Shown here in pieces: positions 8,712 through 23,185 of a stretch of DNA of 64,000 bases. This DNA is from Rhodoferax sp. (GTDB lineage Bacteria; Pseudomonadota; Gammaproteobacteria; Burkholderiales; Burkholderiaceae_C). The stretch is taken from positions 1,302,001-1,366,000 of the forward strand of contig JAGRPL010000004.1 of NCBI GenBank assembly GCA_019449595.1. The letters are read 5' to 3'. Below the pieces are notes generated by a model. It was not told where the DNA came from. It was given only the letters and a program-made list of their open reading frames with translations, and made no database searches. The first letter of the stretch is position 1. Every line of letters starts with the position of its first letter. The translations under genes and the position numbers were made by a program.

Positions 8712-8745
8712 TGAATAGAAACAGCGCGGCCTGGCCTTGCCGCGC
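8712..8745 (-). terminator. Riboswitch expression-platform terminator before bluB
   Basis: On the minus strand a perfect 7-bp stem (GCGCGGC / GCCGCGC, 8-nt loop, 8724-8745) is followed by TGTTTCTATT. It lies between the cobalamin aptamer and the bluB start, so it is the likely off-state intrinsic terminator. Confidence 0.6.
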
Positions 8746-8751
8746 ATGGAA

Positions 8752-8915
8752 CTTTCAGGCCGGTCTTCTGGCTTGGATTCATCTGACCCGCCACGCCTTC
8801 CCGGCTTTGGCAGCCAGTGGCACTTCATGGGGGTCATCATCCTTACAGCGTTGGGCACGCGACGGATTCACACCGTCTTCCCGATTCTCCCGTTACCTTG
8901 CGGCAGCGGGCACCT
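8752..8915 (-). promoter_or_regulatory. Cobalamin (B12) riboswitch upstream of bluB
   Basis: Read on the minus strand, the segment shows the parts of the B12 aptamer in order: a GGTGTGAATCC element, CGTGCCCAACGCTGTAAGG, the GCCACTGG box, and near the 3' end GCCGGGAAGGCG followed by AAGCCAGAAGACCGGCC. The 3' boundary is near 8755 and a terminator hairpin follows. A TATCAT hexamer just upstream (about 8927-8932) could be the -10 box. It controls bluB and probably cobT, cobS and cobC. Confidence 0.88.
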
Positions 8916-8953
8916 GAAGCGGGCGATGATAACAGCCCGCGCCAACACCCCGG

Positions 8954-16060: not shown

Positions 16061-17139
16061 CACGCCCTCCCGCTCGCGTGGGACTGCCCACGGTGCATCA
16101 GCCACAGCAGGTAGCCGCCGCCCAGCACCGCGGTGAGCACGCCCACGGGCAGCTCCTGCGGCGCAATCAGGCCGCGCGCCAGGGTATCGGCCGCCATCAG
16201 CAGCACGCCCCCCATCAAGCTGGATAGCAGCATCAGGTGGCCGTGCGTGGTCTTGACCACCGAGCGCACCAGATGCGGCGCGGCCAGGCCCACAAACGCA
16301 ATCAACCCGGTCTGCGCCACGGCGCTGCCCGTGGCCAGCGCCAGCACCGCCACCAGCGCGGCGCGCATGGGTGCCACCGGCAAGCCCAGGCTCACGGCGG
16401 TGGCGTCGCCCAGGCTCAGGCCATCGAGCACCCGCGCCAGCAGCCAGGCCACCAGCACGCACACACACCACACACCCAGCATCAGCAGCGCCGCGGTCCA
16501 GCCCACAAAGGCGGTGGAGCCCAGCATGAAGGCCTGCATGGCCTGCAGCGAATCGGGCGTGAACAGCAGCACCAGATGCGTCATGGCTCCCAGCACCACA
16601 CCCACCACCACACCGGCCAGCAGCAGGCGCAGCGTGTGGCCCACACCGCGCGAGAGCACCAGCGTGAGCAGCACCGCCAGCACCGCGCCGCAGAACGCCG
16701 CACCGGTCAGGCCCAGGCGCACCCACACGCTGCTGGAAAACACGCTCACCGGCACGCTGCCGTTCATCATGCTGGCGCCGCCCAGCATGCCAGCACCCCC
16801 GCCCAGGGCGGCCAGCGCCAGCGCCACGCCCAGCGAGGCACCGGAGGCACTGCCCAGCAGATACGGGTCGGCCAGTGGGTTGCGAAACAGGCCCTGCGCC
16901 ACGGCTCCGGCCAGCCCCAGCAGAGCGCCGGCAGCCCAGGCGCCAAGCGTGCGCGGCAGGCGGATTTCCCACACGATCTGCTGCGCCATGGCGGCGCGTC
17001 CGGGGTCCAGCTCCGGATGCAGCAGCGGCTGCAGCAGGTTCTCGAAACCGGCACTGCCCACACTGATGCCCACCGCAGTCAGCGCCAGTGCGCCCAGCAC
17101 ACCGGCCCACAGCAGCCACCAGGCGCGCGGCTGCATCAT
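16060..17139 (-). CDS. btuC: Cobalamin ABC transporter permease (FecCD family)
   Basis: 359-residue polytopic membrane protein of the BtuC/FecCD family, forming the cobalamin channel with BtuD. Typical segments are the EIRLPRTLGAWAAGALLGLAG region near the N-terminus, the LLLAGVVVG helix, and GLIAFVGLAAPHLVR, the loop that contacts the ATPase. I start at the first ATG of the ATGATG at 17139, which overlaps the btuF stop by four bases; an upstream in-frame start at 17172 would lie deep in btuF. Confidence 0.88.
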   Translation of the reverse strand: MMQPRAWWLLWAGVLGALALTAVGISVGSAGFENLLQPLLHPELDPGRAAMAQQIVWEIRLPRTLGAWAAGALLGLAGAVAQGLFRNPLADPYLLGSASGASLGVALALAALGGGAGMLGGASMMNGSVPVSVFSSSVWVRLGLTGAAFCGAVLAVLLTLVLSRGVGHTLRLLLAGVVVGVVLGAMTHLVLLFTPDSLQAMQAFMLGSTAFVGWTAALLMLGVWCVCVLVAWLLARVLDGLSLGDATAVSLGLPVAPMRAALVAVLALATGSAVAQTGLIAFVGLAAPHLVRSVVKTTHGHLMLLSSLMGGVLLMAADTLARGLIAPQELPVGVLTAVLGGGYLLWLMHRGQSHASGRA

Positions 17140-18137
17140 GGTTTGGCTCCTGGCGCCTTGCTCTCCAGGCAACGGGCCATCAGGCGCGCGGCCTCGGCCA
17201 TGCGCGGTCCGGGGCGCACCAGCACGTCGGCCTGGTCGGCGGGAAAGTCACACACCCGCCGCTCGCGCAGCGCACGGATGCTCTGCCAGCCCGGACGGGT
17301 CTGCAGGGCATCGACGCTACGCTGGCCGATCATGATCAGGTCCGGGTTGGCGCGCACCACGAACTCCGGGTTCAGCTTGGGAAACGGCCCGAGTGCACCC
17401 GGCACCACATTCTTCACTCCCAGACGGGTCAGCGTCTCGCCAATGAACGAGGACTCGCTGGCGGCATACGGCCCCTGGTTCACCTCGAAGTACACCCGCA
17501 CACCCCGCGCATAGGCCGGCAGCGACTGGGCGGCGGCCGACACCCCGGCATCGATGGCGCGCCAGATGCGCTGGGCGTCGGGTACTTCCAGCAGTTGTCC
17601 GATCTTCAGGGTGACGCGCCGTACATCGGCATGGGTCTTGGGTTCCAACGCCACCACCTTGAGGCCCAGCGCCTCCAGCCGGGCGCCGGCACGCGAGGAT
17701 TTGGACATCAGCACCACATCGGGCCGCAGCGCCACGATGGCCTCGATGTTCGGGTCCAGCCCACCGCCCACCTGGGGCAGCTTGCGCAGGCTCTCCGGGT
17801 AGACCGAATAGCGGTCCACGCCCACCAGGCGCTGGCACTGGTCCAGCGCGCACACTGTCTCGGCCAGCGAAGGCAGCAGACTGACGATGCGCTGGGGCGC
17901 GGTCGGCAGCGTGATGGTCACGCCCCGGTCGTCCACGATCTGCAGGGCGTGTGCCGCGCCTGCGAAGGCGAACGCAACAAACAACGCCGCCAGCTGGCGC
18001 AGTGTCAGGGTGTTTTGCGCAGGTAAAGGAGGAGCCCGCAACGCGGGCGGGGGACACGGAGCAAAATGCCCTGGCACTGCGCCTACCAGCAGAAGCACAA
18101 GCCTGCGGAGGAGTCCGCTGAAGGTTGGGTGGTTCAC
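17136..18137 (-). CDS. btuF: Periplasmic cobalamin-binding protein with repeat-modified leader
   Basis: 333-residue substrate-binding protein of the helical-backbone class (BtuF). The mature domain starts near LQIVDDRGVTITLP, and PQRIVSLLPSLAETVCAL is the family's opening strand. A standard signal sequence (RQLAALFVAFAFAGAAHA) precedes it but has no ATG. The nearest good start is a GTG at 18137 whose GTGA overlaps the cobU stop. This gives a leader of over 60 residues that includes PCPPPALRAPPLPAQNT, encoded by a 42-bp repeat core and its arms (17996-18083). I infer that the repeat was inserted into the original leader. Whether export still works is an open question; a TTG near the second signal could be an internal start. 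Confidence 0.8.
   Translation of the reverse strand: MNHPTFSGLLRRLVLLLVGAVPGHFAPCPPPALRAPPLPAQNTLTLRQLAALFVAFAFAGAAHALQIVDDRGVTITLPTAPQRIVSLLPSLAETVCALDQCQRLVGVDRYSVYPESLRKLPQVGGGLDPNIEAIVALRPDVVLMSKSSRAGARLEALGLKVVALEPKTHADVRRVTLKIGQLLEVPDAQRIWRAIDAGVSAAAQSLPAYARGVRVYFEVNQGPYAASESSFIGETLTRLGVKNVVPGALGPFPKLNPEFVVRANPDLIMIGQRSVDALQTRPGWQSIRALRERRVCDFPADQADVLVRPGPRMAEAARLMARCLESKAPGAKP
17996..18083. repeat. Palindromic insertion element, copy 1 (in btuF leader)
   Basis: A 42-bp core (18019-18060) containing the hairpin GCCCGC-AAC-GCGGGC is enclosed by 23-nt arms, 17996-18018 and 18061-18083, which are complementary at 20 of 23 positions. The core recurs at 20209-20250 in inverse orientation with one base difference. 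The arm sequences of the two copies are unrelated except for the innermost few bases. Confidence 0.8.
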
Positions 18138-18718
18138 GTTGCTTCTTTCAAGGTCAAGGGCAATCCGGCGGCCATCAACGTCACGCGCTGGCAGGCGTCG
18201 GCCACGTCCTGGTTCAGCCGCCCCAGCGCATCGACAAAGGCGCGCACCTCGCGCCCCAGGGGGATGACGCCCAGGCCAATTTCGTTGCCCACCAACACCA
18301 CCGGACCGGGCGCCTGCGCGATTGCTATCAAAAGCGTAGCTATCTGCGCAGGTTCCACGGAGGTTGGCGGCGGATTTTGTTCGCAATTTGCCGGCATCAG
18401 GCAATTGGTGAGCCACAGCGTCAGGCAATCCACCACCACCAGCGTCTGGGCGCTGCTGTGGCGCGCAATGGCCTCGGCCAGCGCCAACGGCTCTTCCACC
18501 GTCTGCATACCGGGCACGCGCTGGGCGCGGTCGGCCTGGTGGCGGGCGATGCGCTGGCGCATTTCGTCGTCCCAGGGCTGGGCAGTGGCAATGAGCACGG
18601 CGCGGTGCTCGCTGGACGCGTCCAGCCACTGGCGGGCCAGCAGCTCGGCGCGGCGCGACTTGCCGCTCTTCTGGCCGCCCAGGATCAGCTCGCTCATGGC
18701 AATGGTGCGGATCATCAT
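18134..18718 (-). CDS. cobU: Adenosylcobinamide kinase / adenosylcobinamide-phosphate guanylyltransferase
   Basis: 194-residue bifunctional enzyme that phosphorylates adenosylcobinamide and transfers GMP to it, activating the molecule for CobS. The P-loop is GGQKSGKS (14-21), and later VLVGNEIGLGVIP is the family's GNE motif. The ATG at 18718 overlaps the upstream stop as ATGA; an internal ATG at 18697 is an alternative. Residues about 111-134 form an extra loop containing EPAQIATLLIA, encoded by a dispersed repeat (18324-18352), between the LWLTNCL strand and the GNE motif. The enzyme core looks intact around it. Confidence 0.9.
   Translation of the reverse strand: MMIRTIAMSELILGGQKSGKSRRAELLARQWLDASSEHRAVLIATAQPWDDEMRQRIARHQADRAQRVPGMQTVEEPLALAEAIARHSSAQTLVVVDCLTLWLTNCLMPANCEQNPPPTSVEPAQIATLLIAIAQAPGPVVLVGNEIGLGVIPLGREVRAFVDALGRLNQDVADACQRVTLMAAGLPLTLKEAT
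18324..18354. repeat. Short GCTA-TAGC repeat, copy 2 (inside cobU)
   Basis: 17-mer GCTATCAAAAGCGTAGC followed by CTGCGCAGGTTC. The same arrangement occurs in pgeF at 33905. Read on the coding strand it gives EPAQ-A--LIA in both genes. Confidence 0.65.
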
Positions 18719-19563
18719 GCGAATTGCCCCTTCTGGTCCGCATCCATCCAGCGGGTGACGATGGCGTGCAGCTGCGCCACACCGTCGGTCAGTGCCGCCG
18801 GGCCGGGCTGCAGGATGTCGCAGGACTTGATTTCGAACAGCTGGCCGTGGCGCACCGCATTCACCGCCTGCCAGCCGTCGCGTGCGGCCACGGCCTCCGG
18901 GCGGAACTTCTTGCCGCACCAGGAACCAATGACGATATCGGGGTTGCGGCGCACTGTTTCTCCGCTGTCGGCAATGATGCGCTGCTTGCCCGCACGCTCT
19001 TGCGCCAGTTCGGGGAAACAGTCGTCACCACCCGCCATGCCCAGCAATTCCGACACCCAGCGGATGGCACTGATGGGGGGAACGTCCCATTCTTCGAAGT
19101 ACACCTTGGGGCGCCGGGCGCCGGCGGCCACACGCTGGGCCACGGCTGTTTCGATGGCACCCAGCTGGGCCTGCATGGCGGCGATGCGCTCCAGCCCCTG
19201 CGGCCCCTGCCCCACCATGGCCGCCACCTGGTACAGCATGGAAAAAATCTCGGCCACGCTGCGCTGGTTGAAGATGGTGACCTGCACGCCGCGGCGCACC
19301 AGTTCCGCCGCAATGTCAGCCTGCATGTCCGAAAAGCCCAGCACGCAGTCGGGTTGCAGCTCCAGAATCTTGTCGATCTTGGCGCTGGTAAAGGCGCTCA
19401 CCCGCGGCTTCTCGTCGCGTGCCCGGCGTGGCCGCACGGTGTAACCCGAAATGCCGACGATGCGCGCCTCCTGCCCCAGCAGGTACAGCCACTCGGTGGT
19501 TTCCTCGGTCATGCAGACCATGCGCTGCGGGCCGAGGGGGAAATCCAGCAGGTTCTGCGTCAT
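18715..19563 (-). CDS. BtuF-like cobalamin-binding protein without signal peptide
   Basis: 282-residue protein with the helical-backbone metal/cobalamin receptor fold (RMVCMTEETTEWLYLLGQE as the opening strand, ILELQPDCVLGFSD as the typical middle strand). The N-terminus, starting at the ATG that overlaps the cobB stop (ATGA), has no signal peptide or membrane helix. By contrast the BtuF four genes away does have one. It may therefore bind corrinoids in the cytosol, or be exported by other means. Four-base overlaps on both sides tie it to cobB and cobU. Its function is not established; it is the second solute-binding-like protein in the operon. Confidence 0.7.
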   Translation of the reverse strand: MTQNLLDFPLGPQRMVCMTEETTEWLYLLGQEARIVGISGYTVRPRRARDEKPRVSAFTSAKIDKILELQPDCVLGFSDMQADIAAELVRRGVQVTIFNQRSVAEIFSMLYQVAAMVGQGPQGLERIAAMQAQLGAIETAVAQRVAAGARRPKVYFEEWDVPPISAIRWVSELLGMAGGDDCFPELAQERAGKQRIIADSGETVRRNPDIVIGSWCGKKFRPEAVAARDGWQAVNAVRHGQLFEIKSCDILQPGPAALTDGVAQLHAIVTRWMDADQKGQFA

Positions 19564-20987
19564 GCCGCGCCGTCCTGCGGTGCCGTAAACAGTTCCACCA
19601 CGGCCTCGGGGCACGATGGGAACCAGGCATGGAAATAACTGGCGCGCACGGCGCCCTGCTGCCAGACCGCCTCGCCGTCGTCGGGCAGCGGGTCGCTGTC
19701 CGGACGGGCGGTACGCACGCTGGCCTGCAGCGGGGTGGCCGTGGTCGAATAGTGGAAGGTGTGGCCGCGCAGCGTGCCGCGGGACAGGCGCAGCTGCTGC
19801 GGTCCCAGCGCGGCCAGGCGCTTGTGCATGGTGACCTCACCGGGCAACAGCCCCCACTGCGCATGGCGCGCACCGTCCACCGTCACCAGCGTATCAAACA
19901 GCGCCATCATGCCGCCGCACTCGGCCCACACCGGCTTGCCGGCGGCGATGTGCGCGGCCAGACTGGCGCGCAGCGCGGTGTTGGCGGCGATGGTCTGGGC
20001 ATGCAGCTCGGGGTAGCCCCCCGGAATCCACAGCGCGTCGCACGGCGGCAATGCGGCATCCGCCAGGGGCGAGAAGAACACCAGCTCGGCACCCAGCGCT
20101 CGCAGGGTGTCGAGGTTGGCAGCGTAGATGAAGCAGAAGGCGGCATCGCGTGCCACGGCAATGGTTTTGCCCTGAAGTCCTCGGAGGTTGGGCGACCGAG
20201 CGCTCTGCTCCGTGTCCCCCGCCCGCTTTGCGGGCTCCTCCTTTACCTGCGCAGAACACTCGGTCGCCCGACCTCTTGCCGAGGTCTCTGGTGCGGAAAA
20301 GTCCACGGACCAGCGCTGCAGATCGTCCAGCGTCATCATCCCCAGGGGCGTTGATGCCAGCGCATCGGCCGCCGCATCGAGCCGCTCCATGGCATCGGTC
20401 ACTTCGCTGGCCACGGTCAGGCCCAGGTGCCGCTCGGGCAGGGTCATGGCCGCGTTGCGCATCACGGCACCCATGTAATGCGCCGGGTCGCGCACGCTGC
20501 GCGCCAGCATGTCGGCGTGGCGCGCACTGGCCACGCGGTTGGCCAGCACCCCGGCCCAGGGCATGTTGGGGCGGTAGTGCTGCAGGCCAAAGGCCAGGGC
20601 GCCAAAGGTGCCCGCCATGCTGGAGGCGTCCACCACCGCCAGCACCGGCAGGCCGAAGCGCTGCGCCAGGTCCGCCGCACTGGGTTCGCCATCGAACAGG
20701 CCCATGACGCCTTCCACGATGATGAGGTCCGCCTCCTGCGCGGCCGCATGCAGGCGGGAACGGCAATCGGCCTCACCCGTCATCCACAGGTCCATCTGGT
20801 ACACCGGCGCACCGCTGGCCAGGGTGTGCCAGTAGGGGTCCAGAAAGTCCGGTCCGCACTTGAACACCCGCACCCGGCGCCCCTGGCGCGTGTGCAGACG
20901 CGCCAGCGCCGAGGTGATGGTGGTCTTGCCTTGGCCGGAGGCCGGGGCAGCGATCAGGATGGCGGGGCAGGAAACGGTAGAGGTCAT
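19560..20987 (-). CDS. cobB: Cobyrinate a,c-diamide synthase with an inserted linker
   Basis: 475-residue glutamine-dependent amidase (CobB/CbiA) forming the a,c-diamide, or acting in hydrogenobyrinate/cobyrinate salvage. The N-terminal P-loop is APASGQGKTT (14-23); the amidotransferase nucleophile is in AECGGMMALFD. Between the two domains, residues about 233-272 are a charged, low-complexity stretch (ATECSAQVKEEPAKRAGD) encoded by the second copy of the palindromic element; it separates VDFSAP from KTIAVARDAAF, which would normally be nearly adjacent. The insertion keeps the frame. It starts 19 bases after the btuB stop. Confidence 0.9.
   Translation of the reverse strand: MTSTVSCPAILIAAPASGQGKTTITSALARLHTRQGRRVRVFKCGPDFLDPYWHTLASGAPVYQMDLWMTGEADCRSRLHAAAQEADLIIVEGVMGLFDGEPSAADLAQRFGLPVLAVVDASSMAGTFGALAFGLQHYRPNMPWAGVLANRVASARHADMLARSVRDPAHYMGAVMRNAAMTLPERHLGLTVASEVTDAMERLDAAADALASTPLGMMTLDDLQRWSVDFSAPETSARGRATECSAQVKEEPAKRAGDTEQSARSPNLRGLQGKTIAVARDAAFCFIYAANLDTLRALGAELVFFSPLADAALPPCDALWIPGGYPELHAQTIAANTALRASLAAHIAAGKPVWAECGGMMALFDTLVTVDGARHAQWGLLPGEVTMHKRLAALGPQQLRLSRGTLRGHTFHYSTTATPLQASVRTARPDSDPLPDDGEAVWQQGAVRASYFHAWFPSCPEAVVELFTAPQDGAA
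20179..20284. repeat. Palindromic insertion element, copy 2 (in cobB interdomain linker)
   Basis: The 42-bp core (20209-20250) is bounded by arms 20184-20208 and 20251-20275, complementary at 22 of 25 positions, and by an outer CCTCGG / CCGAGG pair. All three differences in the arms are transitions. The core orientation is opposite to copy 1. Confidence 0.8.
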
Positions 20988-22857: not shown

Positions 22858-22943
22858 GGAAAAAAACCCGACTGGAAACTCTCCCTGGCTTCCCCGCCTG
22901 GGCATGAGCACTACAGCGGTGCGCACAGCGCACCTCCACCTCG

Positions 22944-23140
22944 TTGGCCGGTATCCGGGCTGGTGGAGCAACTCCCATCGCCTTCCCAAGCGCGTGTTCA
23001 AAACGCTCAGTGGCTGTGATGGGAGCGAAATCGCGGGGATTCGTCCACTTACCGTTGCGGGGGCAGCGCAGGTTAGGTTGGCTGGCGACAGCGTCTCCCT
23101 CCTGCTTCCCGTTGAACTGCGGTGTGTGAACCACACCGCG
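22944..23140 (-). promoter_or_regulatory. Cobalamin (B12) riboswitch upstream of btuB
   Basis: Minus-strand reading shows the classical order: GGGAAGCAGG, CTGCCCCCGCAACGGTAAG, ACGAATCC, CAGCCACTG, GGGAAGGCGATGGGA and the 3' CAGCCCGGATACCGGCC. A perfect hairpin, GGTGCGC / GCGCACC, follows at 22918-22934 and is a candidate part of the expression platform. With 19-base or smaller spacings down to btuC, it may govern the whole operon. Confidence 0.92.
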
Positions 23141-23185
23141 AGCACCAACCCGCGCATTTTACGCCGCTCTGGCTTGCGCAAACCC

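Follow-up and report, generated by a model that had tools for sequence, protein, structure and literature searches.

A probable dispersed palindromic repeat of Burkholderiales chromosomes, with a conserved core between paired arms of variable sequence, in the btuF-like and cobB genes of Rhodoferax sp.

What kind of element leaves nearly the same 42 bases, in opposite orientations and between arms that look unrelated yet pair with each other, in two genes of one chromosome? The question was raised by a stretch of 64,000 nucleotides from Rhodoferax sp. (assembly GCA_019449595.1, contig JAGRPL010000004.1, positions 1,302,001 to 1,366,000; here the window), in which an initial annotation had reported two such cores with self-complementary arms in the leader of a btuF-like gene and in a linker of cobB. 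Recalculation confirmed the arrangement: the core at 18019 to 18060 and the reverse complement of 20209 to 20250 are the same at 41 of 42 bases. Copy 1, read on the forward strand and antisense to btuF, has its 5′ arm at 17996 to 18018 in the leader region and its 3′ arm at 18061 to 18083, the two forming the outer stem; its core consists of a 5′ purine strand, a 6-bp tip hairpin and a 3′ purine strand. Copy 2, on the reverse strand and sense to cobB, has its 5′ arm at 20251 to 20275 in the linker, its core at 20209 to 20250 inside the peptide AQVKEEPAKRAGDTEQ, and its 3′ arm at 20184 to 20208. The pairing given at first for the 23- and 25-nucleotide arms (20 of 23 and 22 of 25) proved to be the Watson-Crick share, and the G·T pairs (three in copy 1, two in copy 2) raise it to 23 of 23 and, with one mismatch, 24 of 25.

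Both copies probably belong to a non-autonomous palindromic repeat dispersed over Burkholderiales chromosomes, the one-strand fold of which would be recognised by a putative factor. The genome of the window holds six copies, all with paired arms: antisense in btuF; sense in cobB, mpl, mutL and the N-terminus of a gene that we take from its sequence to be thiG-like (NCBIfam gave no ThiG match); and, as judged by a crude gene finder, one outside genes. A pattern scan of public genomes gave at least 117 stretches which, together with the six, make at least 125 copies. These 117 loci, among the matches listed, were chosen by core pattern, so that core conservation among them is biased; the 122 copies with full flanks formed the base set for the counts of pairing and wobble. 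Rhodoferax, Hydrogenophaga, Curvibacter, Polaromonas, Macromonas and other Burkholderiales are represented among the matches listed. A covariance model of 95 positions matched 82 of 200 genomes of the family, and a stricter pass over the whole order (model R1, E up to 1e-4) matched 12 of 399; in two further groups, families f21 and f13, there were model matches in 12 of 150 and 9 of 11 genomes. Matches numbered 33 in R. ferrireducens A7, 32 in Rhodoferax TS-BS-61-7, 29 in Rhodoferax TH121, 19 in Hydrogenophaga pseudoflava, 3 in Polaromonas CF318 and 1 in Macromonas bipunctata, counts that may include the reverse strand of the palindrome: the window's own genome gave nine R1 matches (not all of them inspected) for its six copies, and one match of the stricter pass is the reverse strand of a counted copy.

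The repeat unit spans about 90 to 125 nucleotides and is made up of an outer stem of roughly 19 to 30 bp and a folded core, rich in purines, that carries a small tip hairpin. In 120 of the 122 copies at least 18 of the 22 outer-arm positions are paired, the exceptions being L041 (14) and L080 (12), and since all six copies of the window's genome are paired as well, the pairing is far beyond chance. Without any model fitting, the arms of one copy pair at a mean of 21.2 of 22 positions, whereas a left arm crossed with the right arm of another copy pairs at 16.3. Between copies, left arms agree at a mean of 14.3 of 22 positions and the (pattern-chosen) cores at 41.7 of 44. Arms pair while differing between loci, and the first impression that the arm sequences are unrelated holds insofar as the stem sequence is largely free, but there is a weak consensus across loci and some groups of copies have arms in common. 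An alignment of 85 copies from three families has changes in both members of all 23 outer-stem pairs and pairing in 97.2% of cells; it scores 0.894 for covariation, compared with 0.195 when shuffled and no more than 0.137 with slid partners. Being fitted to the model, this alignment is biased in its favour, but the unfitted counts agree. Alignment A3, of 69 loci, contained reverse-strand matches of the palindrome and was excluded from counts and models in favour of alignment A4, made from 59 of these loci at a stricter cut-off.

The core itself looks folded and likewise covaries. Its 5′ strand ends in AAGGAGGAG and is followed by a tip hairpin that varies in both sequence and length; the 3′ strand is GGGGGACA, and the short form is AAGGNGGAG-hairpin-GGRGGACA. 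In 379 deduplicated copies, a set in which the stem was required and most core letters were fixed by the pattern, leaving free only the covarying letters reported here, position X of AAGG[X]GGAG combines with position Y of GG[Y]GGACA as A·G in 349 copies and as G·A in 17, the remainder being A·A (8), C-G (3), G·G (1) and A·C (1). The G·A form was seen in several genera, in families f1, f13 and f21. At a neighbouring position, G is combined with C in 277 copies and A with T in 87, with other combinations in 15.

The repeat itself has probably been named already. Judged by description, it is probably the Betaproteobacterial repeat element (BRE), a unit of about 90 bp with partial matches of 40 to 60 bp and suspected mobility (Hot et al. 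2011, PMC3110155), and the initial view that no element of this arrangement had been described is therefore probably wrong. The G+C content of BRE is 69.0% (63.7 to 78.9), some of its copies lie inside coding sequences, and it is listed from Rhodoferax, Polaromonas, Bordetella, Acidovorax, Delftia, Verminephrobacter and Azoarcus (PMC3110155). Our 122 copies have a similar G+C content of 69.8% (60.6 to 79.8); the lengths also correspond, with the 95 positions of the model beside the whole unit and the core beside the partial matches; and Rhodoferax and Polaromonas (strains TH121 and CF318 above) are common to both, as are copies in genes. The other five genera of the BRE list are not among the nameable matches here. 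The available part of the BRE account speaks of tandem repeats, whereas we find head-to-head pairs, and it says nothing of covarying arms, a strand rule, a folded core, conservation in place or inversion at a site (PMC3110155). Bordetella has a BRE beside lexA (PMC3110155); in 30 lexA loci, from genomes none of which is known as Bordetella, no convincing copy was found beside lexA (best match to model R2, E 0.25). Among open-licence PubMed Central papers BRE was the sole description found, and none covered the structural and evolutionary behaviour reported here.

The mismatches tolerated in the stem indicate which strand folds. On the element strand, 20 positions scored in the 122 copies yielded 198 G·T and 28 A·C combinations, while crossed arms give 300 and 166; other mismatches number 530 when crossed and 70 as observed. 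By this comparison, the avoidance of A·C comes close in strength to that of the other mismatches, whereas G·T is far more readily tolerated. The G·T to A·C ratio is 58:6 in sense copies, 63:7 in antisense copies and 70:9 in intergenic copies (gene context was assigned by a crude script, and 19 copies near sequence ends and two duplicates were dropped); the pooled copies in genes comprise 41 sense and 32 antisense. At the mpl site alone the ratio is 13:0 in sense and 20:2 in antisense, or 19:2 and 17:1 in a nonredundant set. Selection on messenger RNA structure would reverse the ratio in antisense copies; it is much the same there, which is the main argument for structure at the level of the element, and the wobble rule being independent of the gene strand, such selection was rejected. 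The fold probably acts as single-stranded or cruciform DNA, though it may also be that of an RNA made from the element strand alone. In one genome (G125, L242 to L261), a crude gene finder, which missed the cobB copy, placed 11 copies in genes, 10 of them sense, unlike the pooled counts; the copies in genes there are single.

A structured RNA, either a small RNA transcribed from the element strand or a domain of a longer transcript whose fold is kept by RNA selection, was one of the first suggestions for the window copies. The covarying stems on which it was based are strongly supported, and covarying core positions and the tolerance of G·T also fit it. If BRE is the same element, a further point is that in B. 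pertussis RNAz detected the BRE region, from which Northern blots show a transcript of 70 to 80 nucleotides (PMC3110155). Wobble, however, follows the element strand rather than the mRNA, in much the same ratio in sense, antisense and intergenic copies, and the same coding sites hold both orientations (see below). The window copies have no Rfam match at the gathering score, and the six loci of their genome, searched with E up to 1, returned microRNA families alone, far below gathering scores. A known RNA family was rejected on these scores, and the RNA explanation in general appears rather unlikely to us.

The arrangement of copies outside genes invites comparison with transposase-linked palindromes. 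Intergenic copies in other genera and families are often head-to-head pairs about 45 nucleotides apart; in G746, of family f21, pairs with spacers of 35 to 54 nucleotides are located close to open-frame ends. Near-identical pairs of this genome share arms by subfamily, which shows that the arms travel with the unit. Many such near-identical pairs occur there at L341 to L360, with a spacer of about 44 nucleotides that by eye looks self-complementary, and the outer ends of pairs are often near GGTTAA and GCGCAC. Repetitive extragenic palindromic (REP) sequences, bacterial interspersed mosaic elements (BIMEs) and REP doublets forming hairpins (REPINs) are likewise short chromosomal palindromes, often in head-to-head pairs. 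Our element resembles REP and BIME sequences in its dispersal as short palindromes and in the head-to-head pairing of its units, and differs from them in its long outer stem of free sequence, its folded conserved core, its common in-frame position in genes and the lack of a linked Y1 gene. Movement as single-stranded DNA by a host Y1 HUH transposase of the REP-associated tyrosine transposase (RAYT) type would suit the palindromes, the pairs and the one-strand fold, and a Y1 match was present in all 12 genomes picked as element-bearing. By a hand count that takes the two sets of 200 genomes to be identical, Y1 matches were present in 67 of the 82 genomes with the element and in 80 of the 118 lacking it, a weak association that leaves 15 element-bearing genomes without one; two of the genomes lacking a Y1 match, G011 and G020, are near complete and have 13 and 10 model matches. 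None of 24 Y1 (RAYT-type) matches had an element within about 1.5 kb, and mobilisation by RAYT as judged from linkage was rejected on these 24 places. We regard the RAYT system as an unlikely source of the repeat.

Orthologues of the host genes allow occupied and empty sites to be compared. Seven cobB orthologues (L169 to L173, L175 and L176) are empty, with a short linker that holds neither arm and no counterpart of the 5′ arm of copy 2, while five are filled in sense (L161, L163 to L166) and two in antisense (L162, L168); in L167 and L174 the linker is of another kind, lacking the core and not of the shortest form. The mpl set was fetched by protein from 101 genomes and gave 30 loci, of which 29 were parsed: 17 with the core (15 of them, in sense, were used below), six with another stretch lacking it, and six empty. 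The empty mpl sites have an 18-base linker, and the filled ones 102 to 126 bases, always a multiple of three. As the empty sites of both genes hold neither arm, the arms must be gained or lost together with the core. At the mpl site, L377 to L380 and L382 have other linkers of 54 to 78 bases without a core; that of L378 shows by eye a GTTTTGCC/GGCAAAAC stem, perhaps a remnant after core loss. The claim that both window copies are in-frame insertions in a linker and a leader is confirmed; the cobB linker is short in orthologues, and the btuF copy is placed upstream of the part matched by protein models.

Both orientations occur at the btuF, cobB and mpl sites alike. The btuF leaders of the window and of Polaromonas CF318 (L107) carry the element in antisense, those of L095 and L113 carry it in sense, and that of L099 is without it; the leader of L095 (Curvibacter) seemingly contains two opposite copies within one reading frame. 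Further repeat sites, all sense in our sample, are found in the mutL linker and at the thiG-like N-terminus. On the mpl gene tree (45 rows, with two identical pairs, a third pair at zero length, and 16 rows selected by the core) the antisense state needs at least five gains or losses, four of them forced by well-supported branches, a count that fits inversion in place and independent insertion alike. To keep core sequence and folding while leaving the stem sequence free, in either orientation, is unusual for a DNA repeat.

The core has also changed little where its host gene has diverged. Among the 15 sense mpl orthologues the fourfold sites of the gene differ by a mean of 41% (15 to 60%) and the stems by 33%, whereas the 44-base core differs by a mean of 1.8 bases (about 4%), and fourfold sites inside the core differ in 73 of 724 comparisons. 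Within two sets of mpl loci that, by their arms, have an insertion in common (L368, L371, L373, L374 and L381; L365, L366 and L376), cores differ at 0 to 3 and stems at 1 to 7 of 38 bases, with fourfold sites 20 to 40% different. Simple decay after insertion does not fit a core that is nearly unchanged beside diverged fourfold sites. Conservation is not absolute, as some cobB cores (L165, L166) show changes. The alternatives are nucleotide-level selection at each site and an active process that keeps the copies uniform. Conservation of the core at fourfold positions, compensatory change in the stem and repeated inversion would be in keeping with a folded, strand-specific motif actively maintained at each site, part of a structure-recognised system with a putative protein rather than a decaying selfish insert; we advance this only tentatively, as a possibility short of probable.

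Template switching between the arms at replication could by itself account for the pairing of the arms as well as the two orientations of one site; it would copy one arm onto the other and flip the core, the fold itself being unselected and both pairing and inversion by-products. Inversion of hairpin loops by template switching is known from plastids. Such copying predicts about equal numbers of G·T and A·C, in contrast to the 198 and 28 seen, and it leaves the fourfold conservation and covariation of the core unexplained; as the origin of the repeat's features it seems to us distinctly improbable, although it may be the route of inversion. The proposal that the inserting core gives rise, by templated snap-back, to an inverted duplicate of the host sequence beside it, made because the arms of the window copies look unrelated yet pair, is very improbable, being rejected at cobB and mpl by empty sites free of both arms and opposed by the weak arm consensus and by the common arms of near-identical copies.

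By behaviour, REP and BIME sequences and the Rickettsia palindromic elements (RPEs) are the nearest kinds. RPEs are palindromic repeats in frame within protein-coding genes (PMC3733652), and resemble our element in this respect; ours is absent from some cobB and mpl orthologues. They belong to another bacterial order, and the likeness is one of description. The coding palindromes of Nematomorpha mitochondria are perfect inverted repeats, the arms of which encode conserved protein (PMC6649704); they too lie in protein-coding genes, and their abstract mentions neither a common core nor a dispersed family. A miniature inverted-repeat transposable element derived from an insertion sequence would be expected to have constant terminal inverted repeats and a target-site duplication; the arms here vary in sequence.

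For the dispersed palindromic repeat that we favour, we infer the following course. A putative trans-acting factor would recognise the one-strand hairpin GCAGGTAAAGGAGGAG...GGGGGACACGGAGC, and would more probably do so on single-stranded or cruciform DNA than within a host mRNA. This recognition would spread the copies, flip them and make them homogeneous, and within genes the survivors would be those insertions that keep the frame in linkers or leaders. The mode would be like that of REP and BIME repeats, with in-frame insertion of the Rickettsia type added.

Several observations weigh against this account. No mobilising or binding protein was found, target-site duplications have not been established, and both the element-free surroundings of the Y1 matches and the near-complete genomes without Y1 tell against it as they do against the RAYT system. 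Opposite orientations at one site could stem from independent insertions, the B. pertussis transcript may point to a role as RNA, and core conservation in place exceeds what a merely dispersing repeat would predict. A search of 72,556 plasmid and 50,697 phage records with the 48-base Rhodoferax core (E up to 0.01) returned nothing, which is odd for a mobile element. As a control, 74 matches to a looser core pattern in viral contigs included four with a stem by script, one of them weak and within a coding frame; spread via plasmids or phages was rejected on these two results.

The two host genes in the window encode proteins of recognisable type. The frame containing copy 1 (17136 to 18782, reverse strand; an open frame with the real start codon inside it) is btuF-like: its residues 290 to 538 match the BtuF model NF002894 at 63.6 bits, below the curated cut-off of 234, and the frame matches the TroA_like model NF038402 at 48.6 bits, above its cut-off of 30. 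Copy 1 lies upstream of the part that matches these substrate-binding protein models. The host of copy 2, at 19560 to 20987 on the reverse strand, is cobB (cobyrinic acid a,c-diamide synthase; NF002204, 430.8 bits, cut-off 254). Two cobalamin riboswitches, at 8741 to 8932 and 22929 to 23163, both on the reverse strand, fit with btuF and cobB lying between them.

Conserved genes, among them mutL, mpl and cobB, accommodate a foreign peptide, and either strand of one and the same insert can encode such a peptide. The many sites with a known orientation of the host gene amount to a natural experiment, in which selection on mRNA structure can be told apart from selection on the element strand. If the motif is actively maintained, the structure-recognised system would be one of homing or would serve a cell function at single-stranded or cruciform DNA, and a reader of one-strand DNA folds would then await discovery in a widespread order of environmental bacteria.

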